From the IMG/VR virus record IMGVR_UViG_3300027963_003641, positions 1 to 34,227 of that record: a stretch of 34,227 nt of DNA; one strand, 5' to 3'. The notes beneath the pieces are model-generated. The model did not search any database, was not told where the DNA came from, and saw nothing but the letters and a program-made list of their open reading frames with translations. This DNA is from a virus. Every line of letters begins with the position of its first letter. Position 1 is the first letter of the stretch. The position numbers and the translations under genes are program-made. Shown piece by piece: positions 6,010 to 34,227 of this stretch.

Positions 6010-6010
6010 G

Positions 6011-6939: not shown

Positions 6940-7340
6940 TATCATACGCAACTCTAAAGGCCGCACAGGACGGCAAAGTAGCACCTTGGACCAACATAGT
7001 GCCTGAACTCAGTAACACTCATATTGCTGTGTTCCGCGATGCGTACCCTGTTGCAGAGGGACATCTGTTGTTTGTACCACGTGCCAACACCGATGAATCA
7101 ATTGTGGTGGCCATGGGCATGGCGTTGTTGACTGGCCGTCAAATGGTACAAAACAATCAGTGTGACGCTTTCAACATTGGATTGAATGCAGGAGTTGCCG
7201 CGGGGCAGACAGTGATGTATCCACATGTGCACCTGATACCAAGAATGCACGGTGACACTGCTGATCCAGTGGGAGGTGTGCGTGGTGTGATACCTGGTCA
7301 GGCCAACTACAAAACTGACACGTATAAACAACCTGAATGA
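6936..7340 (+). CDS. HIT-family nucleotide hydrolase/transferase
   Basis: A 134-residue HIT protein. The N-terminal strand pair includes VFRDAYPVAEGHLLFVPR, which is typical of the nucleotide-binding half. The signature FNIGLNAGVAAGQTVMYPHVHLIPR contains the histidine triad region, and GGVRGVIP follows as in the bacterial dinucleoside polyphosphate hydrolase-like group. The triad reads Tyr95-Pro-His97-Val-His99: the first histidine is replaced by tyrosine, while the middle one, the nucleophile in studied HIT enzymes, is kept. Members hydrolyse nucleoside phosphoramidates or Ap4A-like dinucleotides. It lies between the folE and queD-like genes, so a nucleotide clean-up role is plausible but not shown. 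Confidence 0.82.
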   Translation: MISYATLKAAQDGKVAPWTNIVPELSNTHIAVFRDAYPVAEGHLLFVPRANTDESIVVAMGMALLTGRQMVQNNQCDAFNIGLNAGVAAGQTVMYPHVHLIPRMHGDTADPVGGVRGVIPGQANYKTDTYKQPE

Positions 7341-8005
7341 TTGATATAAAAAGTTTGTCTTCCACAAAATGTGGTGTATGTGCGCCTATTGGTGGGTTTG
7401 GAAATCATGTAAGATGGCTATCGTTATTAGATCCCGTTTTTCAATTTGAACTTACACCACTGGCTGAACCAAGATTTAGAAAAATACCAGATACATCAAG
7501 ACACATAACATTTCTTGATGCAGATAGTAAATTAGAAAGTTTTAGCACACAAATTTATTCTTCAAAACGATCATGGGATAATTGGTTGTGGATGGAATTT
7601 CTTTACAGGGAAGACCTGGATGAAATTTTTATCTTTGATCATAGGGAAGATGGAAATATAGCCACTGTGAACAAATATCTAACACTAACAATTGACCCAC
7701 AGATTGCGTTAAAATCGTATTTTAAACTCAATAGTAATTTAAATCATTGCACCCCAAGTATTTTCAAAAAACAATCTTCCTGGCAGATTGATTCAACATT
7801 ATCAAAACAAAAAGTAATGAACGTGGATTGTTTGTACCAACCGGTCCTTGATAGAACATTTTACAACACCATGATCGAATGGTTTGAGTTAAGTGATTGT
7901 TATGACTTGGCCAACCAAGTACACGGATTGTGGTTTGATTTGCATCAAAGAGCCGAACAAGAATTTGTTGCATACACCAATAATCTTTACAAAAGAATTG
8001 AGTGA
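7337..8005 (+). CDS. protein of unknown function, possibly transferase-like
   Basis: The protein has 222 residues. The N-terminus has VCAPIGGFGNHVRWLSLLD, a Gly-rich turn followed by a helix, which loosely recalls the nucleotide-binding start of sulfo- or glycosyltransferases. The C-terminal part has VDCLYQPVLDRTFYNTMIEWFELSD, then a VHGLWFDLHQRAEQE helix, an arrangement often seen at the end of phage sulfotransferase-like proteins. These resemblances are weak and I would not assign an activity. It starts in a 4-base overlap with the HIT gene and ends about 100 bases before the queD-like gene, where two promoters lie. Its base composition is more AT-rich than that of the HIT gene. Confidence 0.6.
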   Translation: MIDIKSLSSTKCGVCAPIGGFGNHVRWLSLLDPVFQFELTPLAEPRFRKIPDTSRHITFLDADSKLESFSTQIYSSKRSWDNWLWMEFLYREDLDEIFIFDHREDGNIATVNKYLTLTIDPQIALKSYFKLNSNLNHCTPSIFKKQSSWQIDSTLSKQKVMNVDCLYQPVLDRTFYNTMIEWFELSDCYDLANQVHGLWFDLHQRAEQEFVAYTNNLYKRIE

Positions 8006-8015
8006 TCTACCACTG

Positions 8016-8023
8016 TATAAATA
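8016..8023 (+). promoter_or_regulatory. T4-type late promoter box TATAAATA
   Basis: TATAAATA is the exact T4 late promoter -10 consensus. Transcription would start near 8029 and the RNA would carry the hairpin at 8072-8094 that covers the queD-like ribosome-binding site. The box lies just downstream of the 7337 gene's stop. Confidence 0.55.
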
Positions 8024-8055
8024 TTCTTTTAAGCGGCCTATCGGCATCGTCCCGC

Positions 8056-8084
8056 TTTACAAACTCCGCCGCCTATGCTATACT
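8056..8084 (+). promoter_or_regulatory. sigma70-like promoter of the queD-like gene
   Basis: TTTACA (8056-8061), a 17-base spacer and TATACT (8079-8084) form a good host-type promoter. The predicted start is at about 8091, which is the first base of the Shine-Dalgarno TAGGAG. The resulting leader is about 15 bases. The -10 box lies in the loop of the hairpin at 8072-8094. Confidence 0.65.
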
Positions 8085-8094
8085 TTAACATAGG
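8072..8094 (+). promoter_or_regulatory. hairpin overlapping the queD-like ribosome-binding site
   Basis: CCTATG (8072-8077) and CATAGG (8089-8094) form a 6-base-pair stem with an 11-base loop. The 3' arm contains AGG of the Shine-Dalgarno TAGGAG (8091-8096). Read-through or late-promoter RNA would contain both arms; RNA started at about 8091 lacks the 5' arm and leaves the site free. T4 uses this arrangement at genes such as e and soc. Confidence 0.5.
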
Positions 8095-8105
8095 AGAAAA
8101 ACAGC

Positions 8106-8612
8106 ATGACAACATTAAATCCCGTAGTTTACAAATACACCTCAACCAAAGAGTATCACGACGCATTTCCATGTGCGTATAGACAGTGGAGGAGCGATAG
8201 CCATTGTAATTTGATACACGGATATTCATTCTCAATGAAGTTCTATTTTGGAACTAACGAACTGGATGTGCGTAACTGGGCCGCCGACTATGGCGGGCTC
8301 AAAGAACTAAAGAAAACATTAGAAGATCAATTTGATCACACACTTATTGTGGCACAGGATGATCCTGAAATGGAGACATTTAAACTGCTACAAGAGCGGA
8401 ACATGGCCAAGGTTGTGGTATTGCCCCGGCTGGGTTGCGAAGGTTTATCTGACATGCTATACAAATATGTGAATGGCGTTTACATTCCCGAAATGTGGGG
8501 TCCAGGTGAAGCGGCTCGTTTATGGTGCTATCGTGTGGAAGTTCGCGAAACACAGGCCAATATGGCTTTCCGTGAAGGTCATCGTGAATGGAATGAAGAT
8601 TTATTTGCTTGA
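8106..8612 (+). CDS. queD: 6-carboxytetrahydropterin synthase-like protein (QueD/PTPS family) with altered zinc site
   Basis: QueD turns dihydroneopterin triphosphate into 6-carboxytetrahydropterin, the second step to preQ0. This 168-residue protein keeps the fold signature: FPCAYRQW, the catalytic-type Cys34 in SDSHCNLIHGYS, YGGLKELK, and FDHTLIV with the Asp77/His78 relay, then C-terminal YRVEVRET. In typical QueD the three zinc histidines sit in AAH and HGH; here these read AY(25) and H(38)GY(40), so two of three are tyrosine. An HGY variant occurs in some bacterial relatives as far as I recall, but the AYR change is unusual. It is longer than the usual 120-140 residues. Context with folE and queE supports the pathway; activity is uncertain. 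Confidence 0.75.
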   Translation: MTTLNPVVYKYTSTKEYHDAFPCAYRQWRSDSHCNLIHGYSFSMKFYFGTNELDVRNWAADYGGLKELKKTLEDQFDHTLIVAQDDPEMETFKLLQERNMAKVVVLPRLGCEGLSDMLYKYVNGVYIPEMWGPGEAARLWCYRVEVRETQANMAFREGHREWNEDLFA

Positions 8613-8623
8613 TAATATACGCA

Positions 8624-8631
8624 TATAAATA
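8624..8631 (+). promoter_or_regulatory. T4-type late promoter box TATAAATA before the first GT2 gene
   Basis: An exact TATAAATA lies 8 bases before the ATG at 8640. By T4 spacing the RNA would start at about 8637, leaving a leader of only about 3 bases. The bases between box and ATG are T-rich and contain no Shine-Dalgarno sequence, so a leaderless or nearly leaderless mRNA is predicted. Confidence 0.55.
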
Positions 8632-8639
8632 TTTTTCCA

Positions 8640-9530
8640 ATGACAAACGAATACAGCATAGCAGTCTTACTGCCCACACGTAGCCGCACTGATGCACTTA
8701 CTTCAAGTGTAACTAGTATTATAGATTTGGCCAACAATGTTTCTCGCATACAACTAATCTTTGGATTTGACGACGATGATGAAATAGGTTTGAATCATTT
8801 TAAAACGGTGATTCAACCATTTTTGGACAAACGTGGGGTGTCTTACGAGGCCCAAGCATTTAAAAGCATGGGCTATGCTGGACTCAATCGCTACTACAAT
8901 CATCTAGCCAAGTCAACTTCAGCCGACTGGTTGTTTGTGTGGAACGATGACGCCGTAATGGAGACACAGGGCTGGGACTCAGTTATCGAACAATACACTG
9001 GCCAATTCAAACTGTTAAAAGTTCACACTCATAACGATCACCCTTACAGTATTTTTCCTATAATGCCAAGAGCATGGTATGATCTAATGAATCATCTCAG
9101 TCGCCATCAAATGATCGATGCTGAACTAAGTCAACTGGCTTTCTTGCTGGATATCATGCAAGTGATTGAAGTTGATGTCACACACAACCAAGTTGAGTTG
9201 ACCAAAGATGCAACTGATCCTCTCAAACCCAAGGTAAGATTTGAAGGTAACCCTGCTAATCCGCATGATTTCCATAATCCTCAAACCAGTGCTCGACGCT
9301 ATCAGGATTGTGATACTATTGCTGAATACATGCGCTCAATTGACCTAGATACTTCTTGGTGGGAAGGCGTCAAGAGTGGAAAAAGTTATCCCTGGGAAAA
9401 ATTAATTGCCTTGGATATCAACAAACAAATGAGTCAATTTGTAATGGAACTTGATGAGCGTGGGCAGGTCATGTCCTACGGCAAAGATCAAAAGAGTGAA
9501 GATGTCCGGAGGACGCTTGCAACAAAATAA
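8640..9530 (+). CDS. GT2-like (GT-A fold) glycosyltransferase, copy 1
   Basis: The 296-residue protein begins with IAVLLPTRSRTDAL and a helix, the usual start of GT2 enzymes. LIFGFDDDDE gives an acidic nucleotide-binding stretch, and ADWLFVWNDDAVMETQGWD matches the DxD-type metal/donor site. A second half with FKLLKVHTHNDHPYSIFPIMPRAW and a DAELSQLAFLLDI helix is shared almost word for word with the gene at 11138, so the two are paralogs. It would transfer a sugar from a nucleotide donor in the cytoplasm; donor and acceptor are unknown. The sugar-methyltransferase and cupin genes lie between the two copies. A T4-late box sits immediately upstream. Confidence 0.75.
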   Translation: MTNEYSIAVLLPTRSRTDALTSSVTSIIDLANNVSRIQLIFGFDDDDEIGLNHFKTVIQPFLDKRGVSYEAQAFKSMGYAGLNRYYNHLAKSTSADWLFVWNDDAVMETQGWDSVIEQYTGQFKLLKVHTHNDHPYSIFPIMPRAWYDLMNHLSRHQMIDAELSQLAFLLDIMQVIEVDVTHNQVELTKDATDPLKPKVRFEGNPANPHDFHNPQTSARRYQDCDTIAEYMRSIDLDTSWWEGVKSGKSYPWEKLIALDINKQMSQFVMELDERGQVMSYGKDQKSEDVRRTLATK

Positions 9531-10737
9531 TATAACAGTCAGTGGCCTGATTACCGAGTGTGTTGTTTCAAACGCACCAGTTACAAAAATACTTGACTTT
9601 GGTCAGCATGCCTATGCTGATACATTTGTTCGACCAGACCAACTACATCTCAGTGAGCCTGTGTTTCCATTACAGGTATATCTCAATAGTGATTCAGGCA
9701 GTATACAACTGGGCTACGTTAGTTCGGCCCAAGATCGCTACAACCTCTACAGTTACAGTTATACTTCTAGCAACAGTCAAACAGCCAGAAGCCACTGGGA
9801 TGAATATGCTCAAACAATCAAAGGCCGTGGGCGCACAGGCCTAGTGGTAGAAATTGGCAGTAACGACGGATACCTAGTGGGACAGTTTGACAATGCTGTG
9901 GGTGTAGACTCTAGCACCGAAATGTGTGCATTGGCCCAAGAAAAAGGCATTAAAACTGTTAATGCGCTGTTTGATAGCGTCACCGCTGACTTGATAAAAA
10001 ACACACACGGTACCGCAGGTGTAATCATTGCCAACAATGTGTTTAACCATGCCAACGATCCTGTGATGTTTGCTCGGAGCGTGGCAGAACTACTATCAGA
10101 TACAGGAGAGTTTGTGTTTGAAGTTCCGTATTGGCTCAGCATGATTGAGTCAGGAAGATTCACAGACATGGTGTATCATGAGCACCCTACTTACTTTACT
10201 ATAAAAATGGCCTGGAACTTGCTGAAGACTGCTGGATTAGAAATCACTGATTTTGATGTGGTCAACTATCACGGTGGCAGTCTACGAGTGTTTGCTCGTC
10301 GGGATACTGGTGCGGATATGCCGGTCAAGATTCAAGATGCTATAGTGAGAGAAACACAGATGGGTTTGTTTGACCTTGCATTTTATCAAAACTTACAATT
10401 GCGATTTGAGCAAGAAAAAATCAAATGGTTGACCGACTTTTACCAATTGCTCAGTCAAGACCCTGATGCTGTTGTGATAGGCGTAGGTGCCGCTGCCAAA
10501 GCCAATACCTGGTTAACTTGGCACGGTCTTGACAAAACAGTGATACAGTGTATTGCTGATGCCAGCAGTCACAAACAAGGCAAGTATACTCCGTTGAGTA
10601 GAATTCCTATCGTGTCGGATCAAGAGTTTGCCAAGCATGATACACCATATGCTTTGATCATGAGTTGGAACATTCAGCACCACCTACAACAAGCCATATT
10701 AAATATCAATCCCAACACAAGGTTTATATCACAATGA
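9502..10737 (+). CDS. TcaB9/TcaB3-type sugar C-methyltransferase-like protein lacking zinc cysteines
   Basis: I choose the ATG at 9502 (411 residues), 29 bases inside the previous gene; an open frame extends further upstream but only inside that gene. The layout is the three-part one of SAM-dependent sugar C-methyltransferases: an N-terminal zinc-domain equivalent (ILDFGQHAYADTFVRP to about residue 70), a SAM domain with VVEIGSNDGYL (116-125) and IIANNVFNHANDP, VYHEHPTYFT at the catalytic region, and a C-terminal domain with IGVGAAAKANTWL. The four zinc cysteines map to Cys20, Ser23, Asn62 and Ser65, so the zinc site is gone. Related enzymes methylate 3- or 4-keto NDP-sugars. The substrate here is unknown. 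Confidence 0.78.
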   Translation: MSGGRLQQNNITVSGLITECVVSNAPVTKILDFGQHAYADTFVRPDQLHLSEPVFPLQVYLNSDSGSIQLGYVSSAQDRYNLYSYSYTSSNSQTARSHWDEYAQTIKGRGRTGLVVEIGSNDGYLVGQFDNAVGVDSSTEMCALAQEKGIKTVNALFDSVTADLIKNTHGTAGVIIANNVFNHANDPVMFARSVAELLSDTGEFVFEVPYWLSMIESGRFTDMVYHEHPTYFTIKMAWNLLKTAGLEITDFDVVNYHGGSLRVFARRDTGADMPVKIQDAIVRETQMGLFDLAFYQNLQLRFEQEKIKWLTDFYQLLSQDPDAVVIGVGAAAKANTWLTWHGLDKTVIQCIADASSHKQGKYTPLSRIPIVSDQEFAKHDTPYALIMSWNIQHHLQQAILNINPNTRFISQ

Positions 10738-11141
10738 AATCATACAACATTTATGCCGACCATAATCTAACCGGACTTGGTTTTTTCTCAGATGACCGCG
10801 GTACTATTACTGATATATTTTATATGGCCAATATGAATCACGGCTGTGTTATTACTAATCAACCAGGTGCGGTGCGTGGCAATCATTATCATAAATTTAC
10901 CACACAGTATACTTACATATTGTCAGGGACATTAACCTACTATAGTAAAAGTATAGGCGGAGATGAGCCAACAGATGTTTTCAATGCTGTGGCAGGAGAC
11001 ATAATTATCAGTGAACCTCTTGAAATACACGCCATGCGGGCCGGTCCGGAAGGGTGTACCTTTATTGCTTTTGCTGAAGGTCCTAGGGGCGGTGCAGATT
11101 ACGAATCTGATACCTATCGGGTCGAAAGTGTTGTTGAATGA
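10734..11141 (+). CDS. cupin protein of the FdtA/WxcM sugar-processing type
   Basis: Starting at the ATG at 10734, which overlaps the previous stop (ATGA), the protein has 135 residues. GAVRGNHYHKFTTQYTYILSG is the cupin motif found in dTDP-sugar 3,4-ketoisomerases (FdtA) and WxcM-like proteins (RGNHAHK there), and DIIISEPLEIHAM is the second cupin motif with a His. The N-terminal FFSDDRGTITDIF recalls RmlC-like epimerases. Such enzymes isomerise or epimerise keto-sugar nucleotides. The location between a C-methyltransferase and a GT2 gene supports sugar nucleotide processing. Whether it is an isomerase, an epimerase or a binding protein cannot be decided by eye. Confidence 0.72.
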   Translation: MKSYNIYADHNLTGLGFFSDDRGTITDIFYMANMNHGCVITNQPGAVRGNHYHKFTTQYTYILSGTLTYYSKSIGGDEPTDVFNAVAGDIIISEPLEIHAMRAGPEGCTFIAFAEGPRGGADYESDTYRVESVVE

Positions 11142-11965
11142 GTACAAACGAATTTAAAGTTGCTGCCTTGATTCCCACTAGAGGGCGCACCAAGCCACTT
11201 GAAAAATCAATTAAAAGTTTGATTGAGCAAGCAGAACATCCTGACACAATACAAATTTTGATTGCATTTGACAACGATGATATTAAAATTATCAAATACT
11301 TTCAACAGGGCATACAGCCCTGGATGGACGATAACAACGTTAATTACACTGTGTTGAGTATGGATCGCCTGGGTTATCAAAATCTAAATTTATACTACAA
11401 CAAGTTAGCCGAGTATTCAAATTCAGACTGGTTGATGGGATGGGGAGATGATTCGATCATGGAAACCAAAGGATGGGATACTAAAATTGCTCAACACGAT
11501 GGTGAATTTAAATTACTCAAAGTTCATACTCACAATGAACATCCTTACAGTATATTTCCCATAATACCAAGAGCATGGTACATGTTGCGTGAAACATTCA
11601 GTACACATCAAATGCCCGATGCTGAACTTAGTCAAATAGCCTATATGTTAGATATTGTAGAAATAATCGATGTTTCGGTAATACACGATCGTGCTGATTT
11701 GACTGGTAATAATCGTGATGCTACTCATCAAAATCGTGTGAGTTTTGAAGGCAACCCAGACGATCCTAGAGACTTCCATCATAAAAATAATATCAATCGT
11801 CGTCATTCTGTTTGTGAAATGTTTTCTAGATATCTCAAAACTCAAGGAGTTGACATATCTTTTTGGGAGAATATTATAGCAGGAAAACAAGATCCTTGGG
11901 AAAAACTCAAACTCAATGATATAAATCAACAAATGGTTCAAAAAATTATTAGATTGCCAGATTAA
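11138..11965 (+). CDS. GT2-like (GT-A fold) glycosyltransferase, copy 2
   Basis: The 275-residue paralog of the 8640 gene shows the same order of motifs: VAALIPTRGRTKPLEKS, ILIAFDNDD, DWLMGWGDDSIMETKGWD, FKLLKVHTHNEHPYSIFP and a PDAELSQIAYMLDI helix, then FEGNPDDPRDFHH. The gene is more AT-rich than its paralog, suggesting that the pair diverged some time ago or was gained from a related phage. It overlaps the cupin stop by 4 bases and is followed after 3 bases by the E1-alpha gene. The two copies may add successive sugars or use different acceptors. Confidence 0.75.
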   Translation: MSTNEFKVAALIPTRGRTKPLEKSIKSLIEQAEHPDTIQILIAFDNDDIKIIKYFQQGIQPWMDDNNVNYTVLSMDRLGYQNLNLYYNKLAEYSNSDWLMGWGDDSIMETKGWDTKIAQHDGEFKLLKVHTHNEHPYSIFPIIPRAWYMLRETFSTHQMPDAELSQIAYMLDIVEIIDVSVIHDRADLTGNNRDATHQNRVSFEGNPDDPRDFHHKNNINRRHSVCEMFSRYLKTQGVDISFWENIIAGKQDPWEKLKLNDINQQMVQKIIRLPD

Positions 11966-11968
11966 CAT

Positions 11969-12904
11969 ATGAATATTGATAAATTATACCAGTCAATAAA
12001 AACAATTAGGCGAGTGGAAGAAGTTGTTGCCAAAATATATCCTACCGACAAAATTAAAAGTCCAGTACACTTGGGAATTGGGCACGAAGCCGTTCAAGTG
12101 GGTGTGTGTGAAAACTTACAAAAACAAGATGTGGTGTTTGGATACTATCGAAGTCATCCACTGTATTTGGCCAAAGGCGGCAACCTCAATGCCATGATGG
12201 CCGAATTGTATGGAAAAATTACTGGGTGTGCCAAAGGATGGGGTGGTAGTATGCATCTGGTTGACATTGAACACAATGTAATGTCTACCACTGCTATTGT
12301 AGCATCAAGTGTTCCAAACGCAGTAGGCTACGCTTATGCACTTAAACTTCAAAAATCCAATCAGGTGGTTGTTAGTTTCTTTGGTGATGGCGCTACTGAA
12401 GAAGGTGTAGTATCAGAAAGTTTGAATTTTGCCGCACTTAAGAAATTACCTATTTTGTTTGTGTGTGAAAACAACGAGTTGGCTATTCATACCAAGCGCA
12501 CTCAACGTCAGGCCGTGCTTGACATCTGTGGACGTGCCAGAGCCATTGGTGTTCCGGCAACGCATATCGATGAATACAATATAGAAACAATTTACAACAT
12601 CGCCGGTGATCTTGTTGAAAAAATACGAAATGGCTCGGGTCCACAGTTTTTAGAAATTGCCACGAGTCGTTGGTTAGAGCACGTTGGTCCCGGCGAAGAT
12701 TTTAAATTGGGGTACAGAACCGAAGATGAGGTAGCACCGTATCGAGCACAGGACGAAGTTGAACGACTGGGCAAGCAACTGAATCCTGCGGTTCGAGCAC
12801 AAATTGATCAAGAGATTGAACACAAAATTGCTCAAGCAGTTGAGTTTGCAGAGTCTAGCGAATTTCCGCCACAACAGGAATTGTTAAAATATGTCTACAA
12901 GTAA
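11969..12904 (+). CDS. thiamine-diphosphate-dependent dehydrogenase E1 component, alpha subunit-like
   Basis: The 311-residue protein matches E1-alpha of pyruvate/2-oxo-acid dehydrogenases: VFGYYRSHPLYLAKG (about 57-70), GGSMHLVD, a GDGATEEG (139-146) to NN (168-169) ThDP-magnesium motif, and SRWLEHVGP near residue 240. It forms an alpha2beta2 ThDP enzyme with the product of the next gene, which it overlaps by 14 bases. No E2 or E3 gene is in the window, so it may not feed a lipoyl complex. In avilamycin and trioxacarcin biosynthesis similar E1 pairs attach two-carbon branches to NDP-sugars; the sugar genes around it make that a fair hypothesis. No Shine-Dalgarno site is obvious. Confidence 0.85.
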   Translation: MNIDKLYQSIKTIRRVEEVVAKIYPTDKIKSPVHLGIGHEAVQVGVCENLQKQDVVFGYYRSHPLYLAKGGNLNAMMAELYGKITGCAKGWGGSMHLVDIEHNVMSTTAIVASSVPNAVGYAYALKLQKSNQVVVSFFGDGATEEGVVSESLNFAALKKLPILFVCENNELAIHTKRTQRQAVLDICGRARAIGVPATHIDEYNIETIYNIAGDLVEKIRNGSGPQFLEIATSRWLEHVGPGEDFKLGYRTEDEVAPYRAQDEVERLGKQLNPAVRAQIDQEIEHKIAQAVEFAESSEFPPQQELLKYVYK

Positions 12905-13943
12905 TCGATCTATATCTTATGTAGAAGCAATTCGAGAAGCCACCGCTATCGAGATGTCCCGTGACAGCAATGTTGTACTGTTTGGTCTTGATGTTGATGA
13001 TCCAAAAGGCACGTTTGGCACCACCAAGGGATTGGCAGAACAGTTTGGTGCTGACAGATGTTTTGGAACTCCGTTGGCTGAAGATGGCATGACTGGTGTT
13101 GCTGTTGGCATGGCCTTGGCTGGTCTACGTCCCATACACAATCATTATCGCATGGACTTTGCAACCTTGGCCATGAATCAATTGATCAATGTAGCAGCCA
13201 AGACACATGCCATGTCCGGCGGTATGCAAAATGTGCCCATGGTGGTACGTATGTTGATTGGTAAAAGTTGGGGCAATGGATCGCAACATACACAAAGTCT
13301 TTATCCGCTGTTCATGAACATACCCGGCATTAAAATATGTGCGCCCAGTACACCATATGATGCAAAAGGATGTTTGGAATATGCCATCCGTGACAACAAT
13401 CCTGTCATCATGGTCGAGCATAGAATGCTATACTACAGCACTGGTCATGTACCCGAAGGTGAATTATTGGTAGCACCCGGCAAAGCACGAGTGCTTGTTC
13501 CCGGCACGGATGTGACCTTGGTTGGTATCAGTTACCAATCAGTAGAATGTATGCGAGCACAAAATTATCTTGCAGATATTGGGATCAGTGCAGAAGTTAT
13601 TGATCCAATTTGGTTATCGCCAATGGACATAGACACTATTGAAGCCAGTGTACGCAAAACAAAGAATCTTGTGGTGGTTGACAATGCCTGGACCATATGT
13701 GGTGCTGGTAGCGAAATCATTGCCAGTTTACATGAACGCCTGGGTGATATTGCTTGGCGGTCCAAGCGACTGGGTTTTGCCACAACACCATGCCCCACTA
13801 CTCCTTCGTTAGAAGATCACTTCTATCCCACAGGACAATCAATTGCTGCCACAGCAAATGATCTTGTTAACGGTGGTGCTCAATATTGGTATCCAACTGC
13901 CAAGGACGAACTTAAATCTGTTGAATTCAAAGGACCGTTTTGA
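12891..13943 (+). CDS. thiamine-diphosphate-dependent dehydrogenase E1 component, beta subunit-like
   Basis: The 350-residue protein is colinear with E1-beta (PdhB/BkdB/AcoB type). SYVEAIREATAIEMSRD opens the pyrimidine-binding domain. RCFGTPLAEDGMTGVAVGMALAGLRPI contains the glutamate that activates the ThDP aminopyrimidine. KICAPSTPYDAKGCLEYAIRDNNPVIMVEH is the standard segment before the transketolase C-terminal domain, which begins near VLVPGTDVTLVGIS and includes VVVDNAW. Its end reads into the TTGA start of the following SDR. A complete alpha/beta pair suggests a functional ThDP enzyme. The substrate (pyruvate, branched 2-oxo acid or other) cannot be deduced. Confidence 0.86.
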   Translation: MSTSNRSISYVEAIREATAIEMSRDSNVVLFGLDVDDPKGTFGTTKGLAEQFGADRCFGTPLAEDGMTGVAVGMALAGLRPIHNHYRMDFATLAMNQLINVAAKTHAMSGGMQNVPMVVRMLIGKSWGNGSQHTQSLYPLFMNIPGIKICAPSTPYDAKGCLEYAIRDNNPVIMVEHRMLYYSTGHVPEGELLVAPGKARVLVPGTDVTLVGISYQSVECMRAQNYLADIGISAEVIDPIWLSPMDIDTIEASVRKTKNLVVVDNAWTICGAGSEIIASLHERLGDIAWRSKRLGFATTPCPTTPSLEDHFYPTGQSIAATANDLVNGGAQYWYPTAKDELKSVEFKGPF

Positions 13944-14542
13944 AAACTGCTGTAATCATTGGTGCCAATAGTGACATTGCCAAGAGCGCCATACAACTGC
14001 TAGAAAAACAATATCACATTGTGGCTGTTGGTCGAGAAACAATCGATCTTGATGATCCCACTAGTGATATGCGTATCGGCATGATATTGACCATGGCCGA
14101 ACCAGACGTGATTGTTAATTGTGCCGGTGTATTCGATGGTGATAACACATTGGATTACGATACTGTATTTAATGTGAACTTAAAAAGTAACTGGTCTGTG
14201 ATCAACTATTATATTAAAAATCCACCTGCCAAGTCTGTTAAATTTGTTATGATAGGGTCAAGTGCCTACAAACAAGGGCGTAAAAACTTTATTTTATACA
14301 GCGCCAGCAAGGCGGCGTTGTTCAACATGTGGCAAGGTGCTAGTGAATTTGTCCATGACAATTTGAAACTGGGACTGATTAACCCGGTTCATGTACATAC
14401 CAAAATGGTAGCGCATAAACCACACCCAAATCCAGATATTTGTTTGGAACCAATTGATGTTGCCAAAGAGATTGCAAATTTATGCAACATGACACAAAGT
14501 CGCTACATAGATATAGATTACAAAATTAAGGAGACTGTATGA
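13940..14542 (+). CDS. short-chain dehydrogenase/reductase (SDR), TTG start
   Basis: A 200-residue SDR translated from TTG at 13940, which overlaps the stop of the E1-beta gene (TTGA). KTAVIIGANSDIAKSAI is the cofactor loop, VIVNCAGVFDGDN the NNAG equivalent, VMIGSSAYKQG the serine strand, and LYSASKAALFN the YxxxK motif. All catalytic residues are present. It is only distantly similar to the 3862 SDR, though both are short. Position after the E1 pair and before the UDP-sugar dehydrogenase suggests reduction of a keto group introduced on a sugar. The next gene overlaps by 4 bases and has a clear AAGGAG. Confidence 0.78.
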   Translation: MKTAVIIGANSDIAKSAIQLLEKQYHIVAVGRETIDLDDPTSDMRIGMILTMAEPDVIVNCAGVFDGDNTLDYDTVFNVNLKSNWSVINYYIKNPPAKSVKFVMIGSSAYKQGRKNFILYSASKAALFNMWQGASEFVHDNLKLGLINPVHVHTKMVAHKPHPNPDICLEPIDVAKEIANLCNMTQSRYIDIDYKIKETV

Positions 14543-15315
14543 AAGTAGGAGTTATTGGAAAAGGTACTGTGGGCTCAGCAGTATATGATGGACTTGAAGG
14601 GCAAGGACACGACATGAGTTTTTACGATCCAAAAATCGAAGGCTCTAAACTTGAAGACATTTTAAATACTGAATGTGTGTTCTTGAGCGTACCTACAGAT
14701 AGCACAGTCGAAGGCGACTGTGATACCAGCATAGTAGAAAAAGTTTGTAAGGAACTTTCAGACGCACACTACAAAGGTCTAGTGGGAATCAAAAGCACAG
14801 TGGTTCCAGGAACTACTGATCGTATGAAATTAACATATCCCACACTGCGTATGTGCAACGTGCCCGAGTTTCTTCGGGCAAAAACCGCCCTGGCAGATTT
14901 TATTTACAATCACGACGTGTTGGTAATTGGAGTTTACAATGATGCAGACTTCGAGTTAGTTAAAAAGATACATGGCTTTATTCCACGAAACGTAGTTCAG
15001 GTAGCACCTATTGAGGCTGAAATTATCAAATACTTTAACAACGTGCATCATGCAGTTAGTGTGACGTTTGGTAACATCATCTATGAAGTTTGTCAACGCA
15101 TTGGTGCCGATTATAACAATGTGTACAACGCCATCATCAAACGCGATTGTATTAACCCTCATTACTTGTTGGTCAATGAAAAATTCCGAGCATTTGGGGG
15201 ACATTGCTTGCCAAAAGATACCATGGCACTCAACAACTTGATTAAAAAACTTGGACTAGAGTTTGGAATGATTCAGGCGGCGTTTGATGACAACGAAAGG
15301 ATCAAAAATGACTAA
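14539..15315 (+). CDS. short UDP-glucose/GDP-mannose dehydrogenase-like protein
   Basis: The family oxidises the C6 hydroxyl of a nucleotide sugar to a uronic acid with two NAD+. This 258-residue protein has KVGVIGKGTVGSAV (NAD loop), VFLSVPTDS, IKSTVVPGTTDRM, a central dimer helix with AEIIKYFNNVHHAVSVTFGN, and AFGGHCLPKDT with the catalytic Cys223. Normal members have about 390-450 residues; here the chain ends soon after the cysteine, so the C-terminal UDP-binding Rossmann domain is missing. The frame is not broken and the next gene follows normally, so this is a compact natural form rather than a sequencing break. Substrate binding would have to differ from the standard. A good AAGGAG precedes the ATG. 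Confidence 0.8.
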   Translation: MKVGVIGKGTVGSAVYDGLEGQGHDMSFYDPKIEGSKLEDILNTECVFLSVPTDSTVEGDCDTSIVEKVCKELSDAHYKGLVGIKSTVVPGTTDRMKLTYPTLRMCNVPEFLRAKTALADFIYNHDVLVIGVYNDADFELVKKIHGFIPRNVVQVAPIEAEIIKYFNNVHHAVSVTFGNIIYEVCQRIGADYNNVYNAIIKRDCINPHYLLVNEKFRAFGGHCLPKDTMALNNLIKKLGLEFGMIQAAFDDNERIKND

Positions 15316-16201
15316 AATTCTAGTTACCGGTGCTAGTGGATTGTTAGGCACAGAGATCTGTAGACAATTAAAAACAGTTGAGGGCAACGAAGTTTGGGCT
15401 ATCGACAATCACAGTCGCAGTTCAACTATTCCTCCTTGTGATCACTTCTTGGAAATTGATCTAACTGATCAAACATCAATTGATAAATTACCCCGAGTGT
15501 TTGATTACATCTATCACTATGGTGCCATCAACGGTACCAAGAATTTTTACGAACGTCCTAACCATGTGTTGGCAAACAATTTTATTTGTGACCTAAACAT
15601 GTTTGAGTATGCTGGAGAAATTACAAACCTTAAAAAAATTGTGTATGCCAGCAGTAGTGAAATAGTAAGTGATGATCCTGTTAGTCCTGTGCCTGAGCAT
15701 GCAAACATCACTATCCGAGACATTCACAATGCTCGTTGGAGTTATAGGCTTGCCAAAGTATGCAGTGAAAACTATTTGGCCAACAGCCGACTGCCTTATG
15801 TGATGTTGCGTTACTTCAATGTGTACGGTGAGAACAGCAAGGCTGGACACTTCTTAGCTGATCAGATTGCCAAGATCAAAGAAGGCAGATTTGAGTGCTT
15901 TGGTGCCAACGAAACTAGAAGTTTCTGTCATGTGGAAGATGCTATACGAGCCAGTATCTACTGCGCCCAAACACAAACTCGTGAACTGATCAACATTGGC
16001 AACGACAGAGAAATCACCATTATGGATGCGGCACAAATCATTGCATCAGCACTGGGTCATGCCAATCCCGCTTGGACTACCACTCCGGGCAAGCCCGGAA
16101 GCACAGCCAGTCGCAGACCTGACATCACCCGACTACGAAGCATCATGCCCGATTACGTGCCCATGAGTTTTGAATCGGGTGTGCAAAAATCAATTGGATA
16201 A
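15308..16201 (+). CDS. NAD-dependent sugar nucleotide epimerase/dehydratase
   Basis: From the ATG at 15308, preceded by AAAGGA, the protein has 297 residues. MTKILVTGASGLLGTEICRQL is the NAD-binding start; IVYASSSEI gives the catalytic serine region; RWSYRLAK is the YxxxK pair; RYFNVYGENS is the conserved RYFNVYG; RSFCHVEDAIRA is the usual FxxVxD motif and INIGNDREITIMDAA the late signature. It is an extended SDR acting on a nucleotide sugar, either epimerising or dehydrating it. The first 8 bases overlap the dehydrogenase gene, so the two are translationally linked. It ends the sugar module; the following 70 bases contain the queE promoter. Confidence 0.82.
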   Translation: MTKILVTGASGLLGTEICRQLKTVEGNEVWAIDNHSRSSTIPPCDHFLEIDLTDQTSIDKLPRVFDYIYHYGAINGTKNFYERPNHVLANNFICDLNMFEYAGEITNLKKIVYASSSEIVSDDPVSPVPEHANITIRDIHNARWSYRLAKVCSENYLANSRLPYVMLRYFNVYGENSKAGHFLADQIAKIKEGRFECFGANETRSFCHVEDAIRASIYCAQTQTRELINIGNDREITIMDAAQIIASALGHANPAWTTTPGKPGSTASRRPDITRLRSIMPDYVPMSFESGVQKSIG

Positions 16202-16273: not shown

Positions 16274-17131
16274 ATGAGTAAACTTAAAATAGCAGAACTA
16301 TTTTATTCAGTTCAGGGTGAAGGTCGATACATGGGTGTACCTAGTGTGTTCTTGAGAACATTTGGGTGCAACTTTACTTGCGGTGGCTTCGGTATGCCGC
16401 GTGGTGAAATGAGTTCTGAGCGTGATGCTATCGCTGAACGCATGATTGAATTCAAAGACTACAACGAACTGCCCTTGGTGTCAACTGGCTGTGACAGTTA
16501 TGCATCGTGGGATCCACGATTCAAAGACTTGAGTCCCATGCTAGAAACTAATGCTATTGTGCATCGTATCATGGAAATACTTCCGCACAAGCGTTGGGAA
16601 AACGAGCATCTTGTTATCACAGGTGGTGAACCTTTGTTAGGTTGGCAACGTGCTTATCCGGACTTGTTGAATCATCCAAGCATGGGCAGACTTCGAGAAA
16701 TCACATTTGAAACTAATGGCACTCAGCGGTTAGATGATCAATTCAAACAACACTTGCACACCTGGACCTCTCATCATGGTCAAGACTTCTATAGAGAAGT
16801 AACATTTAGTGTGAGTGCTAAACTACCCGGGTCAGGTGAATCATGGTCAGATGCTATCTGTCCAGATGTGGTATGTGAATATGAAGAATATGGCTACACC
16901 TATTTGAAACTGGTTGTAGCAACAGAACAGGATCTAGCAGATGCAGAACAAGCAGTCTTGGAGTATCGCACAGCAGGCTTTACTGGTCCTGTGTATGTTA
17001 TGCCTGTTGGTGGGGTTGAGCGGGTGTATACCCTTAACAATCGTGCAGTGGCAGAAATGGCAATGCGAAAAGGCTGGCGGTACAGTGATCGACTACAAGT
17101 GCCACTCTTTAAAAACGAATGGGGAACTTGA
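16274..17131 (+). CDS. queE: 7-carboxy-7-deazaguanine synthase (QueE), radical SAM, with split cysteine motif
   Basis: QueE is a radical SAM enzyme that converts 6-carboxytetrahydropterin to 7-carboxy-7-deazaguanine. ELFYSVQGEGRYMGVPSVFLR (residues 8-28) is the family's N-terminal signature, VITGGEPLLGW the SAM-binding GGEP motif, and ITFETNGTQ follows. The cluster cysteines are Cys32 and Cys36 with the third apparently at Cys73 (STGCDSYASWD), so the motif reads CX3C-X36-C instead of the usual CX3CX2C. A 36-residue insertion (GFGMPRG to LPLVS) separates them. The protein has 285 residues, longer than typical QueE (about 210-250) partly for this reason. It has its own promoter and is followed in a TGATG overlap by a small gene. 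Confidence 0.9.
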   Translation: MSKLKIAELFYSVQGEGRYMGVPSVFLRTFGCNFTCGGFGMPRGEMSSERDAIAERMIEFKDYNELPLVSTGCDSYASWDPRFKDLSPMLETNAIVHRIMEILPHKRWENEHLVITGGEPLLGWQRAYPDLLNHPSMGRLREITFETNGTQRLDDQFKQHLHTWTSHHGQDFYREVTFSVSAKLPGSGESWSDAICPDVVCEYEEYGYTYLKLVVATEQDLADAEQAVLEYRTAGFTGPVYVMPVGGVERVYTLNNRAVAEMAMRKGWRYSDRLQVPLFKNEWGT

Positions 17132-29939: not shown

Positions 29940-30014
29940 GCCTTGGTAGTTTAAAGGTGAAACAGTCGACTCATAATCGACCGAGTGGGGGTTCAAGTCC
30001 CTCCCAAGGCACCA
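29940..30014 (+). tRNA. tRNA-Met or tRNA-Ile2 (anticodon CAT)
   Basis: A full 75-base cloverleaf: acceptor GCCTTGG/CCAAGGC, D stem GTTT/AAAC, anticodon stem GTCGA/TCGAC with loop CTCATAA, T stem GGGGG/CCCTC with loop TTCAAGT, and encoded CCA. The anticodon stem lacks the three G-C pairs of initiator tRNA, so it is either elongator Met or the Ile type whose C34 is changed to lysidine. Choosing between them needs identity-element analysis. Confidence 0.93.
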
Positions 30015-30018
30015 TTCG

Positions 30019-30093
30019 CTGGCGTTCGTTCAACGGATAGGACATCTTTCTTCTAAAGAGATAATAGTGGTTCGATTCCACTACGCCGGACCA
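30019..30093 (+). tRNA. tRNA-Arg (anticodon TCT)
   Basis: A 75-base cloverleaf: acceptor CTGGCGT/ACGCCGG with one T-G pair, D stem GTTC/GGAC, anticodon stem TCTTT/AGAGA with loop CTTCTAA, T stem AGTGG/CCACT with loop TTCGATT, and encoded CCA. It reads AGA (and AGG), codons that AT-rich phages use more than many hosts do. It is 4 bases after the first tRNA and shares its promoter. Confidence 0.93.
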
Positions 30094-30512: not shown

Positions 30513-30995
30513 TTGTCAGCAATAAACACCAGTCCCGAACGGCATACATTTCAAAACTCTTCAGACGAATTGTCTGAGGTATTAGAACGTTTGCGTGATC
30601 AAGATCAAATCAAACTGTCAGACCCCAAGTGGAAAAAAGACAACTTGGAGTACGATCTTCGTAGCACCCGATGGATCTGCGATCGAACAAAAAGCACCAA
30701 GACCTACGCTCAAAACTTGTATGCGGCCTTGTGCAATCAAGAATGGCAACGTAATGATGTTTGGCCCCGGCTGAAAGACAAACGCTGGTCATGCTCGTGG
30801 CGCTATGCCGGAGGCATTGTGGCTCACATGCGAGAAGAGGGTGACTACATTGACTGGTACTGCTCAGGCATACAAGGCGAGCCTGATGCAGACTGGGTGG
30901 ATCTAGGACATGTGCCAGAAGGTACAGTAACGGATCAAATACGCGAGGATTTGTTTAGATTGGGTTGGATTTCAAAAGAATCTAAAGACAGTTGA
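30513..30995 (+). CDS. conserved phage protein of unknown function, TTG start
   Basis: A 160-residue protein read from TTG at 30513, one base after the previous stop, with GAGGAGG upstream. DELSEVLERLRDQDQIKL is helical; RSTRWICDRTKSTKTYAQNLYAALCNQEWQ, DVWPRLKDKRWSCSWRYAGGIVAHMREEGDYIDWYCSG and DWVDLGHVPEGTVTDQIREDLFRLGW follow. The Trp/Cys-rich middle and G-x-V-A-H-M turn suggest a compact enzyme or binding fold I cannot name. The late-type box GATAAATA lies at its stop, for the next gene. Confidence 0.7.
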   Translation: MSAINTSPERHTFQNSSDELSEVLERLRDQDQIKLSDPKWKKDNLEYDLRSTRWICDRTKSTKTYAQNLYAALCNQEWQRNDVWPRLKDKRWSCSWRYAGGIVAHMREEGDYIDWYCSGIQGEPDADWVDLGHVPEGTVTDQIREDLFRLGWISKESKDS

Positions 30996-31001
30996 TAAAT
31001 A
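30994..31001 (+). promoter_or_regulatory. late-type promoter box GATAAATA before the DctP-like gene
   Basis: GATAAATA differs by one base from T4 late TATAAATA. Predicted RNA start about 31007; the leader of about 19 bases contains AGGAGA before the ATG at 31026. The box overlaps the stop codon of the previous gene. Confidence 0.45.
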
Positions 31002-31025
31002 AATGTACAAACCCAGGAGATACCT

Positions 31026-32024
31026 ATGTCAAACCCCCGCAAGATTAGATGGCTCATTGCACATCAACCACAAGAATTGTTTTTCCGTACCGCTCGTGCT
31101 TTTTCTGATGCGCTAAAAAACTACTCGAATGATGAATTCGAAATTGAAATGCTCACATATGATGATTATGTGGCAAAATATCATGAAATTCCTGGCCTTG
31201 AAGAAATGAAACATTCCCCAGATAGTGATGTGATTTACAATGAAGTTGGCATGAAAGCATTTTGGGGTGCATTATTTGACAGCGAAATTGAGATGAGTCA
31301 AATTCAGGTGCATCGTGTAGGCGATCATCATCATGATTTTAGAATATTAGATTTGCCATTTTTGTTTGAAGATCATGATCATGTCAAGCGTGTGGTGGAA
31401 GGTCCAGTAGGACAAAAATTATGTTCAGAGTTGGGACGCAAAAGCGGTATCACCGGCTTGGCATTTACCTACAGTGGTGGTTATCGAGTAGTTGGATCAC
31501 ATGAGCCTATTGCAACTCTTGATCAATTGTCAACAATGAAAATTGCTGTGCAACAATCGTTGTCTTTGGGCACCACCCTTGAAGATCTAGGAGGATCGTA
31601 CGCAGTATCTGCTCCTACCGAATGGCACCATACTGACCCAATGAAGAACGGGTTTGATGCTGTAGAAACAACTTATTTGCGTTTTAAAGAAGTTAATGGC
31701 AAATATGTTTTTAAAACCAATCACAGCATGTTCTTGACAACCATTTTGGTCAGTAACAAATTTTGGGGCAGTTTAGCACCTGCTCACCAAGAAGCATTCC
31801 GTAAGGCCGCACTTGATGCATCAAGACAAGAACGTAAGTGGTCCTTGGAAGATGCTGTAAAATTTGAAGCCGAGGCCGAAGCAAACGGTGTTACCATCAC
31901 TGAAATGTCTGCTGAAGACACAGCGATACTCAAACACAAAGCCCAGTTGAGTTGGGTTAAATCTCAGAAATACTGGGAAGATAAAGAAATTGTCAAAGAA
32001 ATCGTCCAACAACGGTTGCATTGA
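31026..32024 (+). CDS. TRAP-type (DctP-like) solute-binding protein homolog without signal peptide
   Basis: TRAP solute-binding proteins normally are exported and bind carboxylates in the periplasm. This 332-residue homolog begins directly with the mature fold: KIRWLIAHQPQELFFRTARAF (residues 6-26), then a run of FDSEIEMSQIQ, DLPFLFEDHDHVKRVVEGPVG, LAFTYSGGYRVVGSHEPIATLDQLSTMKIAVQQS and HTDPMKNGFDAVE. No signal peptide is visible, so it stays cytoplasmic. The conserved Arg of the GxKIRVP-type motif, which clamps the substrate carboxylate, is Ala here (MKIAVQQ). No permease genes are present. It has an AGGAGA site and a late-type box. It may bind a different ligand, or have a structural or decoy role. 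Confidence 0.78.
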   Translation: MSNPRKIRWLIAHQPQELFFRTARAFSDALKNYSNDEFEIEMLTYDDYVAKYHEIPGLEEMKHSPDSDVIYNEVGMKAFWGALFDSEIEMSQIQVHRVGDHHHDFRILDLPFLFEDHDHVKRVVEGPVGQKLCSELGRKSGITGLAFTYSGGYRVVGSHEPIATLDQLSTMKIAVQQSLSLGTTLEDLGGSYAVSAPTEWHHTDPMKNGFDAVETTYLRFKEVNGKYVFKTNHSMFLTTILVSNKFWGSLAPAHQEAFRKAALDASRQERKWSLEDAVKFEAEAEANGVTITEMSAEDTAILKHKAQLSWVKSQKYWEDKEIVKEIVQQRLH

Positions 32025-32025
32025 G

Positions 32026-32054
32026 TTGACAGGTTCTGATATGTGTAGTATAAT
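32026..32054 (+). promoter_or_regulatory. consensus sigma70-like promoter, leaderless spacing
   Basis: TTGACA (32026-32031), 17 bases, TATAAT (32049-32054), a perfect consensus. Seven bases after the -10 box is 32061, the A of the next gene's ATG. There is no Shine-Dalgarno site. Confidence 0.72.
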
Positions 32055-32060
32055 GTACAA

Positions 32061-33047
32061 ATGCTGGAACCGATCTTAGTCGACACCAAAATTGATTTAA
32101 AATTTGATCGAGAGAATTTAGCAAAGTTATCCAGGCACTTTGATTTAAATTTTCTCGATTCTTCATTTGATCAAAAAATATTATTTTTTAATAATTTGCA
32201 ACGTGTGAGTCAACGTAGTTTGGGATTGGCTCATAATATACAGCATCATTCCACCTCCATAGTATCCGTACAACTGTGTTCTTCTTTAAAAATAAAAGAT
32301 CATATATTATCACAACCATATGGGCAATTGATTGGGTGCAGTAGTCAGGTCAAACAATCTGACAATATTACCTTGACAGATAATGTATTGCATGGCGAAA
32401 AGAGATGGTTGAGCAATCTTGGCTTGGCTGATTATGCAATTATACAAGTTGAAAAGGATCAGCAAGCCCATATAGTCTATGTTAATTTGCACACGGTTCC
32501 GCACACCGTGGACTTTTCATTCTTTACTCCCATTGGCATGCAAATGAGCAAACCCGGCAGTTTGATTTTTGACAATCAGCCTATTGACCCCGAATGTGTG
32601 CTTGGCATCAAAGGTACCCAGCCGTTCTTTCAACAAAGCAATTTTAGCAGTCAGTGTTTTCTAACCAATCACTATGGCATTACCAAACAGTTATTTTTAG
32701 ATATCAAACAGTATGCAGAGCAAAACAAGTGTGGTGCCGAATTTGAAATTAAAAAATTAGAAATAGATGTCTGCACACTAGACATGATGTGGCATGACAA
32801 TCTTTACACCATTGAGGAAACAGAGTTAACTCATAAATTTTGGAACAAACGCAACACACAGTATGCTTTCAGTAAAAAAACACTGATCAATGTTATCAAA
32901 TTGGTACTAGAACTTGGAGTCAGTTATTATACTGATGCTCACAGCGAGTTTAGTCAACGTTTTAGAGATGCCATCACCTACTCAAGTCACATGCATCCGT
33001 TGTATAGATTTGGGCAGGAATTTTACATGCTGAATCTAAACAAATAA
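32061..33047 (+). CDS. acyl-CoA-dehydrogenase-fold protein
   Basis: The 328-residue protein follows the acyl-CoA dehydrogenase (ACAD) layout. YGQLIGCSSQVKQSDNITLTDNVLHGEKRWLSNLGLADYAIIQV (about 87-130) aligns with the FAD-binding GSD...GxKxWISN block. FFTPIGMQMSKPGSLIFDNQPIDPECVLG matches the LGxRGSxxxxLxFxdVxVPxxxxLG segment. SQRFRDAITYSS near residue 310 matches the RDA(R) block. The catalytic glutamate usually found just after it (YEGT) is absent (ITYSSHM). At 328 residues it is shorter than ACADs (about 380). It may be an inactive binder or an ACAD-fold monooxygenase (nitrososynthase or DszC type), but the substrate is unknown. A perfect promoter gives a leaderless start. Confidence 0.66.
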   Translation: MLEPILVDTKIDLKFDRENLAKLSRHFDLNFLDSSFDQKILFFNNLQRVSQRSLGLAHNIQHHSTSIVSVQLCSSLKIKDHILSQPYGQLIGCSSQVKQSDNITLTDNVLHGEKRWLSNLGLADYAIIQVEKDQQAHIVYVNLHTVPHTVDFSFFTPIGMQMSKPGSLIFDNQPIDPECVLGIKGTQPFFQQSNFSSQCFLTNHYGITKQLFLDIKQYAEQNKCGAEFEIKKLEIDVCTLDMMWHDNLYTIEETELTHKFWNKRNTQYAFSKKTLINVIKLVLELGVSYYTDAHSEFSQRFRDAITYSSHMHPLYRFGQEFYMLNLNK

Positions 33048-33050
33048 ATA
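33043..33050 (+). promoter_or_regulatory. late-type promoter box AATAAATA before the structured region
   Basis: AATAAATA differs by one base from the T4 late box and overlaps the stop of the ACAD-like gene. RNA would start near 33056, just before the hairpins at 33064-33147. Confidence 0.35.
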
Positions 33051-33055
33051 AAAAT

Positions 33056-33150
33056 TGCAACGCCGGTTGGGACCGACGTCGGACCAAAATTGACGCCTGG
33101 AGTAGTGAAACTCCTTTACTGATGTGTTACACTCAGAACGCCGACCGTAG
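33056..33150 (+). ncRNA. candidate structured RNA between the ACAD-like and DUF2061-like genes
   Basis: No ORF covers this 160-base gap. CGGTTGG (33064-33070) can pair with CCGACCG (33141-33147), enclosing GGAGT/ACTCC (33099-33103/33110-33114) and a CTGA-GTG/CAC-TCAG hairpin (33119-33136, one bulge). An alternative short hairpin CGGT-TGGG-ACCG (33064-33075) and a CCGACGTCGG palindrome (33073-33082) compete with the closing stem. GC content here is higher than around it. It could be a small RNA, a riboswitch-like leader or a processing site; no known family is recognised. Confidence 0.45.
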
Positions 33151-33160
33151 CAGATATTTC

Positions 33161-33190
33161 TTGACAATCTGCCAGCCTTTAAGTTATAAT
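33161..33190 (+). promoter_or_regulatory. sigma70-like promoter of the DUF2061-like gene
   Basis: TTGACA (33161-33166), 18-base spacer, TATAAT (33185-33190). RNA start about 33197; AAGAGGAA precedes the ATG at 33211. It separates the upstream structured region from the membrane-protein gene. Confidence 0.72.
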
Positions 33191-33210
33191 CTAATTTAAG
33201 AGGAATCCAA

Positions 33211-33456
33211 ATGTTTCAAACAAAATTTGTAGAGAAGGCTCTCCGCAGCCTTGGCAAAGTCGTGACCTGGCGAATTCTTGTTACCATCACCAACTTCATT
33301 GGCGGTTGGTTGGCCAGTGGTTCGTGGCAGGTGGGCTTGGGAGTGGTATCATTTGCTCTTGTGGTCAACAGTATCCTGTATTACTTTCACGAACGTGTGT
33401 GGAACAGGATCGATGCCGGTAAAGAAGTTGTTGATCCTGAACCACAAACAGCATGA
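33211..33456 (+). CDS. DUF2061-like small membrane protein
   Basis: The 81-residue protein matches the DUF2061 pattern: KALRSLGKVVTWRILVTITNFIGGWLASGSWQVGLGVVSFALVVNSILYYFHERVWNRI. It has two hydrophobic segments (about 22-36 and 41-57) with the family's RSxxKxxTWR start and YYFHERxWNRI end. The family is small, bacterial and of unknown function, so the phage copy is noteworthy. It has its own promoter and a good ribosome-binding site. Its stop overlaps the ATG of the ligase gene (ATGA), which suggests joint expression. Confidence 0.85.
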   Translation: MFQTKFVEKALRSLGKVVTWRILVTITNFIGGWLASGSWQVGLGVVSFALVVNSILYYFHERVWNRIDAGKEVVDPEPQTA

Positions 33457-34227
33457 AAAGAGCAGTAATCTGCACAGGTAATCCTGAGCAGTGGATTCCG
33501 CAATTGTCGGGTCACAGCATCATGATAATAAATCCTGCCAGCACACCAGCGAGAAAACAATACTTGCTGGATCGTGCTGATTGGAGTTTGCTGATGGATG
33601 AACAAGGAGAACACTGGCGGGACGGTGGAACCTACCCCAATGAAAAAGTGCTGTGGTACACCAGCGGAACCACAGGCGACAGCAAGTTCTGTAGTTTTTC
33701 ACAGGCACAGGTAGACTTGTTGGCCGAAAGGATATGCGACACATATGAGTTGTCAGCCAATGACAGATATGTCAGTGTCATGGGATTGTGGCATGCTCAC
33801 GGACAAGGCTTTTACTGGGCCGCACAACGAGCACAGTGCGAAACTAATTACTTGTCTATAAAAAATATCAAAAACATGCCAGCACATGATCCCACATTTA
33901 TTACTGCTATTCCGGATGTGTTAAAGGTTGCAGGACAGTTTGATTTTGATCATTTGAGATTCATAAGATCAGCCAGTGCCCCGTTGTCTCCTGCTTTGTA
34001 TAGTGCATTAGTAGAAAAATTTAATGTACCCGTAGTAGAAGCATTTGGCATGACCGAGGCCTTGAGTCACTGCTTCACTAATCCATTGCATGGTGAACAA
34101 CGTATGGGCACCATTGGCCTTCCTGACGGTATTGATGCCAAGATTGAACAAGGACACCTGATGATCAAAGGTTCCACAGTTTCGTCACATGACTGGTACG
34201 ATACTGGAGATCTTGCTGACCAGGATG
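33453..34227 (+). CDS. AMP-forming acyl-CoA synthetase/ligase-like protein, 3' end cut off
   Basis: This frame starts at the ATG at 33453 and runs off the window (258 codons visible). The adenylation motifs are in order: VLWYTSGTTGDSK (67-78, phosphate loop), RSASAPLSP (172-180), VVEAFGMTEALS (194-205, AMP-binding) and YDTGDLA (249-255). It would activate an acid as an acyl-AMP and pass it to CoA or a carrier protein. Only about 68 residues precede the phosphate loop instead of the usual 150-200, so the N-terminal subdomain is very reduced. The partner ACAD-fold gene lies just upstream. Substrate unknown; the carboxylate-binding pocket residues cannot be judged by eye. Confidence 0.85.
   Translation, partial: MKRAVICTGNPEQWIPQLSGHSIMIINPASTPARKQYLLDRADWSLLMDEQGEHWRDGGTYPNEKVLWYTSGTTGDSKFCSFSQAQVDLLAERICDTYELSANDRYVSVMGLWHAHGQGFYWAAQRAQCETNYLSIKNIKNMPAHDPTFITAIPDVLKVAGQFDFDHLRFIRSASAPLSPALYSALVEKFNVPVVEAFGMTEALSHCFTNPLHGEQRMGTIGLPDGIDAKIEQGHLMIKGSTVSSHDWYDTGDLADQD

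Follow-up and report, generated by a model that had tools for sequence, protein, structure and literature searches.

What ligand would a TRAP-type solute-binding protein (SBP) hold once import is impossible, and in what company does such a protein stand in a virus? The question is raised by IMG/VR record IMGVR_UViG_3300027963_003641, a 34,227-base contig of an uncultured virus of bacteria, the whole of which was analysed (hereafter the window). Four co-oriented open reading frames (ORFs) lie at its right end. An earlier note on this DNA had placed a DctP homolog, an acyl-CoA dehydrogenase (ACAD)-fold protein, a DUF2061 protein and an acyl ligase side by side here, and the Pfam and fold matches bear this out. 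The features are as follows.

31015-31019, plus strand: Shine-Dalgarno sequence AGGAG, 6 nt before the DctP start codon (sequence).
31026-32024, plus strand: signal-less DctP (TRAP solute-binding) homolog, 332 aa (Pfam PF03480, E=1.2e-31).
32061-33047, plus strand: ACAD-fold flavoprotein-like gene, 328 aa (AlphaFold model, Foldseek, motif alignment).
33044-33149, no strand: cassette junction (blastn breakpoints).
33211-33456, plus strand: DUF2061 small predicted membrane protein, 81 aa (Pfam PF09834, E=8.5e-15).
33453-34227, plus strand: the first 258 codons of a compact acyl-adenylate (ANL) ligase that runs off the contig end (PF00501, E=1.2e-21).

The four genes are real and functionally constrained, since all of them showed low dN/dS against close relatives, as under purifying selection (0.06-0.08 for DctP and ACAD together, 0.065-0.08 for the ACAD gene, 0.07 for the ligase and 0.15 for DUF2061). 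They are two exchangeable cassettes side by side, DctP-ACAD (cassette A) and DUF2061-ligase (cassette B). We propose tentatively, with somewhat less than even confidence, that they form the left end of a modular, natural-product-like island of accessory biosynthesis genes in uncultured, largely T4-like phages. In what follows, L-numbers (L003, L006 and so on) are labels for related loci, which are viral contigs plus some bacterial genomes. Genes were called by a simple ORF rule, the contigs of the window and its relatives are all possibly incomplete, and close relatives were sought by short exact patterns, which divergent members may escape.

In blastn, the stretch 30521-33149 of the window matched L003 at 82% identity, and everything from 33044 onward matched L006 at 89.7%. 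This switch of homology from L003-like to L006-like at 33044-33149 indicates that two cassettes were joined there. The DctP-ACAD pair was found in L002 and L003 and occurs without the ligase, which was not found in the 89-kb record of L003. The DUF2061-ligase pair recurs widely and occurs without DctP and ACAD, and L006 has no ACAD gene. None of the other contigs showed these four genes in exactly this order, and the conserved gene order for which the earlier note had proposed a test in other phages was not observed. The same note had read the peculiarities of the four proteins as the coordinated alteration of one pathway. This idea was rejected on the cassette breakpoints: the cassettes are separable, and each change is old, common to its own phage family and specific to it.

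The steadiest partner of these genes in relatives was a PP-loop ATP-using enzyme, just beyond the window end. In L006, the closest relative, the ligase is followed by a PP-loop gene and then by SDR, BKACE (beta-keto acid cleavage enzyme) and TctC receptor genes (Pfam). Of 31 non-redundant DctP loci, 11 had a PP-loop ATPase within three genes of DctP, compared to 3.7 expected, the control being random positions on the same loci, which had themselves been fetched around these genes. Moreover, the PP-loop gene adjoins most ACAD-fold genes, often with TctC receptors. The run ACAD-TctC-PP-loop was present in L181, L183 and L185, which came from a second scan for ACAD-fold loci, and L003 carries ACAD together with DctP, TctC and PP-loop. 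L186 and L188, from the same scan, combine a tryptophan halogenase (1.5e-47), TctC, PP-loop and ACAD, with the halogenase at L186:2110-3735, directly upstream of TctC. Ligase, PP-loop, SDR, BKACE and two ACAD genes form one run in L040, and DctP, ligase, PP-loop, SDR and BKACE stand together in L057. The SDR, BKACE and PP-loop neighbours, and the closeness of the ligase to oxalate- and malonate-CoA ligases described below, agree with the suggestion in the earlier note of acyl or carboxylate chemistry rather than plain uptake.

The alternative that survives best is chance juxtaposition, in which recombination joined two unrelated cassettes that serve separate processes. The homology switch and the unique four-gene order are what it would predict. 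Furthermore, the ligase usually lacks DctP and ACAD nearby and lies beside DUF2061, short DegT or SGNH-like genes, often as a lone reversed gene. Of 31 non-redundant ligase loci, 12 had DUF2061 within three genes of the ligase (3.5 expected), 12 had a short DegT aminotransferase there (3.4 expected) and 13 had SGNH-like genes. However, the ligase lay within three genes of DctP in 3 of 31 DctP loci, where 0.6 were expected, and the runs in L040 and L057 bring members of both cassettes together. We therefore regard chance juxtaposition as possible but on the unlikely side. The window also carries, at 5413-6009, a DegT aminotransferase of just 198 aa whose relatives are the DegT genes neighbouring the ligase.

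The DctP homolog of the window carries the motifs TYSGGYR, ETTYLR and TNHS, and its family profile matched the PDB entry 4xfe at 4e-26. Upstream of the ATG at 31026, the frame stays open for just 9 codons (341 vs. 332 aa). Together with the AGGAG before the ATG, this leaves no space for a signal peptide, and a hidden signal peptide upstream of the start was excluded on these grounds. The protein opens with MSNPRKIRWLIAH, the first strand of the mature binding-protein fold, with the beta-1 His at residue 13. In the ligand-Arg column (SiaP Arg147), where Arg was reported in 96.8% of 6,142 TRAP SBPs (review, PMC5812351), the window DctP has Ala (KIAVQ), while the Arg aligned to SiaP Arg127 is retained. 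Both losses had been claimed in the earlier note. They are shared by the phage DctP family, which comprises 43 viral loci: the ligand Arg was missing in 31 of 34 distinct proteins aligned (two of the three keepers belong to a paralog, named DctP-B here), and signal peptides were missing throughout, except for a few rows with an uncertain start codon. In addition, the Arg of TYSGG[YF]R was present in all 34, and ETTYxR is a second family motif.

The protein resembles the TRAP SBPs DctP and SiaP and the 4xfe structure in sequence and expected fold over most of its length, but differs in its missing signal peptide, in the Ala and in its surroundings. Among the annotated neighbours in the window there is no DctQ or DctM, both of which are present in some relatives, and no gene for the membrane part of a transporter was seen there. 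Ala at the ligand-Arg position is also found in TatP(T)-type TRAP SBPs, which were compared at that residue and are described as taking part in uptake (PMC5812351). A DctP that stays in the cytoplasm, as the phage protein is predicted to do, would not be the receptor of an importer. The simplest reading of its sequence is that it may hold a carboxylate intermediate.

Complete TRAP transporters were observed in T4-like phages at L092:9546-13677 and L090:11414-12544 (also L085, L086, L091, and L102). These have DctQ (2.5e-20), DctM (1.7e-60) and a DctP with signal peptide (2.2e-32), and a pair of signal-less DctPs flanks them; the gp23 capsid family is present in the 244-kb record of L092. TctA subunits of tripartite tricarboxylate transporters were seen in phage contigs at L093:5653-6939 (1.5e-32) and L182:10354-11940 (1.4e-86). 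In the literature we found no direct report of TRAP transporters in phages; tctA is mentioned in a SUP05 phage contig (PMC4164917).

For the ORF at 32061-33047, Pfam gave no family at 1e-3, and a profile search gave a weak match to acyl-CoA oxidase/DszC (DszC, E=6e-4). Structure prediction, a step proposed in the earlier note, was productive. The AlphaFold model (pLDDT 83, pTM 0.86) has the three-domain ACAD fold, and Foldseek retrieved the nitrososynthase DnmZ (9.7e-12) and short-chain acyl-CoA dehydrogenase (SCAD, 1.0e-11), both at about 1e-11, as well as ColB1 and TdsC. As the earlier note had stated, the catalytic Glu is gone: the Glu of IYEGT was absent after RDA in 6 of 6 ACAD-fold members aligned and present in bacterial controls. 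No alternative Glu of the IVD type was seen in the helix after the beta domain, in an alignment judged by eye. The QxxGG motif of the FAD and dimer site was also lost, with ELGVSYY where QxxGGxGY was expected, while the flavin motif GxKxW[LI][ST]N was retained and the C-terminal segment reads RDAITYSSHM. Group D monooxygenases have been described as having an ACAD-type domain in common (PMC6165268). The phage protein shares with the group D enzymes and nitrososynthases DszC and DnmZ an ACAD fold without the dehydrogenase Glu, and DnmZ was its top Foldseek match; however, it is shorter (328 aa), and the top structural E-values do not tell it from SCAD. Given the lost Glu base and QxxGG motif and the matches to DnmZ and DszC, a group-D-type oxygenase role is more likely than dehydrogenation.

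The ligase is truncated in the window because the contig ends. Its complete counterpart in L006 has 359 aa and is 92% identical over the shared part. In line with the earlier note, the N-terminal domain is much reduced: the Pfam match begins at profile position 166 of 384, and residue 64 of the ligase pairs with residue 171 of oxalyl-CoA synthetase in the alignment. The ligase homologs (56 loci) share this short N-terminus. The motifs YTSGTTGDSK, EAFGMTE and YDTGDL are present, and A3, A5 and A7 are intact in an alignment of 40 sequences. A8 and A10 (with its Lys) fall past the contig end and were read in L006, and complete relatives keep all motifs. The nearest PDB relatives are oxalate- and malonate-CoA ligases (oxalate-CoA ligase, 3.4e-37, family profile), which suggests a small acid as the substrate. 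The adenylation motifs are common to the phage ligase, the oxalate-CoA ligase AAE3 and malonyl-CoA synthetase, and FIRS[AC]SA and HxHG segments are shared with AAE3. Compared with both enzymes, the phage ligase is about 105 residues shorter N-terminally and clearly divergent in sequence. A GTDB genome scan with two exact motifs gave no bacterial relatives of the ligase; with the scan limited to these motifs, distant relatives could be missed.

The sequence data establish the genes and their folds, the motifs lost and kept, purifying selection, the cassette structure and the neighbours that recur. From these we infer the following activities, substrates, order of steps and product for the proposed island. 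Cassette A would be part of a module with three parts that recur in relatives: an ACAD-fold flavoprotein, an ATP-pyrophosphatase of the PP-loop type and an SBP fold, either a DctP in the cytoplasm or a secreted TctC. During infection, the ligase would convert a small carboxylic or dicarboxylic acid to acyl-AMP and then to acyl-CoA. The PP-loop enzyme may activate a second carboxylate and make an amide-type bond, and the ACAD-fold protein would oxidize the product, more probably as an oxygenase of the group D type. The signal-less DctP would keep a carboxylate intermediate in the cytoplasm rather than import it. The product would most likely be a glycan decoration or a small secreted molecule.

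Several observations weigh against this proposal. The structural model of the PP-loop protein (pLDDT 81) resembles carbapenam, beta-lactam, NAD and Asn synthetases and LarE with weak scores (best E 1.6e-3, TM about 0.3), too weak for a function to be assigned from the fold. In L006:11183-12235 and L040:11804-12856, its SGGxDS motif is degenerate (GGGPDG), the rest being conserved. The ligase was present in only 3 of 24 DctP or ligase phage records tested, many of them fragments, and with cassettes that reassort, joint action of the four genes is not a given. Finally, the earlier note had pointed to genes beyond position 34227. The continuation in L006 (PP-loop, SDR, BKACE and TctC) answers to that, while the carrier protein (PF00550) did not appear in 27 of 28 related phage records, many of which are fragments; with a single record positive, ACP-based loading in phages was rejected.

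Carboxylate scavenging would explain part of the data. Phage receptors would raise organic-acid uptake, and CoA activation with a beta-oxidation-like route (ligase, ACAD, SDR and BKACE) would feed the infected cell. Relatives with a signal-peptide TctC, a whole TRAP transporter (DctQ, DctM, and DctP) or TctA fit this scheme, as do the SDR and BKACE genes after the ligase in L006, L040 and L057. It is quite unlikely for the window: its DctP lacks the signal peptide and the ligand Arg, both the catalytic Glu and the QxxGG FAD motif are missing from its ACAD-fold protein, and no membrane gene of a transporter was seen in it. A role of the cytoplasmic DctP as sponge or sensor, sequestering a host metabolite or defence signal, with incidental enzyme neighbours, is very unlikely: a conserved signal-less family in diverse phages, with the ligand Arg mostly lost, an invariant Arg in TYSGG[YF]R and the ETTYxR motif, and some DctP loci with none of these enzymes nearby, would suit it, but the PP-loop neighbours recur, the bacterial relatives stand in acyl-ligase/carrier operons and no link to defence genes was seen.

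Of 18 related records tested, 9 carry the gp23 capsid family; the L006 record does not. By these gene contents the phages appear to be at least partly T4-like. No relative of the PP-loop, ACAD or ligase families came up in tblastn among 50,697 deposited phage records, and DctP gave just distant matches (22-28% identity), some in bacterial-looking records. Cyanophages S-SSM7 and P-TIM40 carry tryptophan halogenase-like genes, so that halogenase homologs occur in T4-like phages there as in L186 and L188; however, these are about 25% identical, and the deposited phages gave no PP-loop or ACAD-fold relative.

A bacterial genome scan with the phage DctP alignment gave matches mainly in Bdellovibrionota, most with signal peptides. 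Many of these DctPs adjoin AMP-ligase, carrier protein, MBOAT and other acylation-type genes, and others do not. Dlt-like operons with DctP beside AMP-ligase, carrier protein, MBOAT and further genes were seen in L107, L109, L113 and L117. Like the phages, they place an AMP-ligase next to a DctP from the TYSGG[YF]R family, but the bacterial DctPs have signal peptides and the operons have MBOAT and a carrier, the latter mostly absent in the phages. In a tree whose root is unreliable, the window DctP grouped with L002 and L003, and most phage DctPs stood apart from a clade of bacterial proteins and DctP-B. Signal-less DctPs were also observed in two Bacteriovoracaceae genomes (L161:8713-9660 and L162:8699-9646), near flagellin-like genes (by eye) and beside a 200-aa protein with homologs near DctP in phages L094 and L096.

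Nucleotide-sugar and glycosyltransferase genes stand upstream of the four-gene cluster. Many of them, together with QueE-like and GTP cyclohydrolase genes, lie at 3862-16201, 16274-17131 and 6011-6748 of the window. Two tRNA genes, Met (CAT) and Arg (TCT), were found at 29940-30093.

A wider claim, that small-molecule islands of T4-like phages use cytoplasmic SBP folds as substrate carriers or enzymes for a PP-loop ATPase, an ACAD-fold oxygenase and an acyl-AMP ligase, is in our judgement unlikely; if true, the TRAP binding-protein fold would have a use that the literature we found does not describe. The Bdellovibrionota relatives beside acyl-ligase/carrier operons offer a route to tests in culturable organisms. 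Selection maintains the phage families, yet the searches made found no clear member of them among deposited phages. The usual interpretation of accessory genes in phages is that they boost host metabolism; this set points instead to phage-owned biosynthesis with its own protein families.

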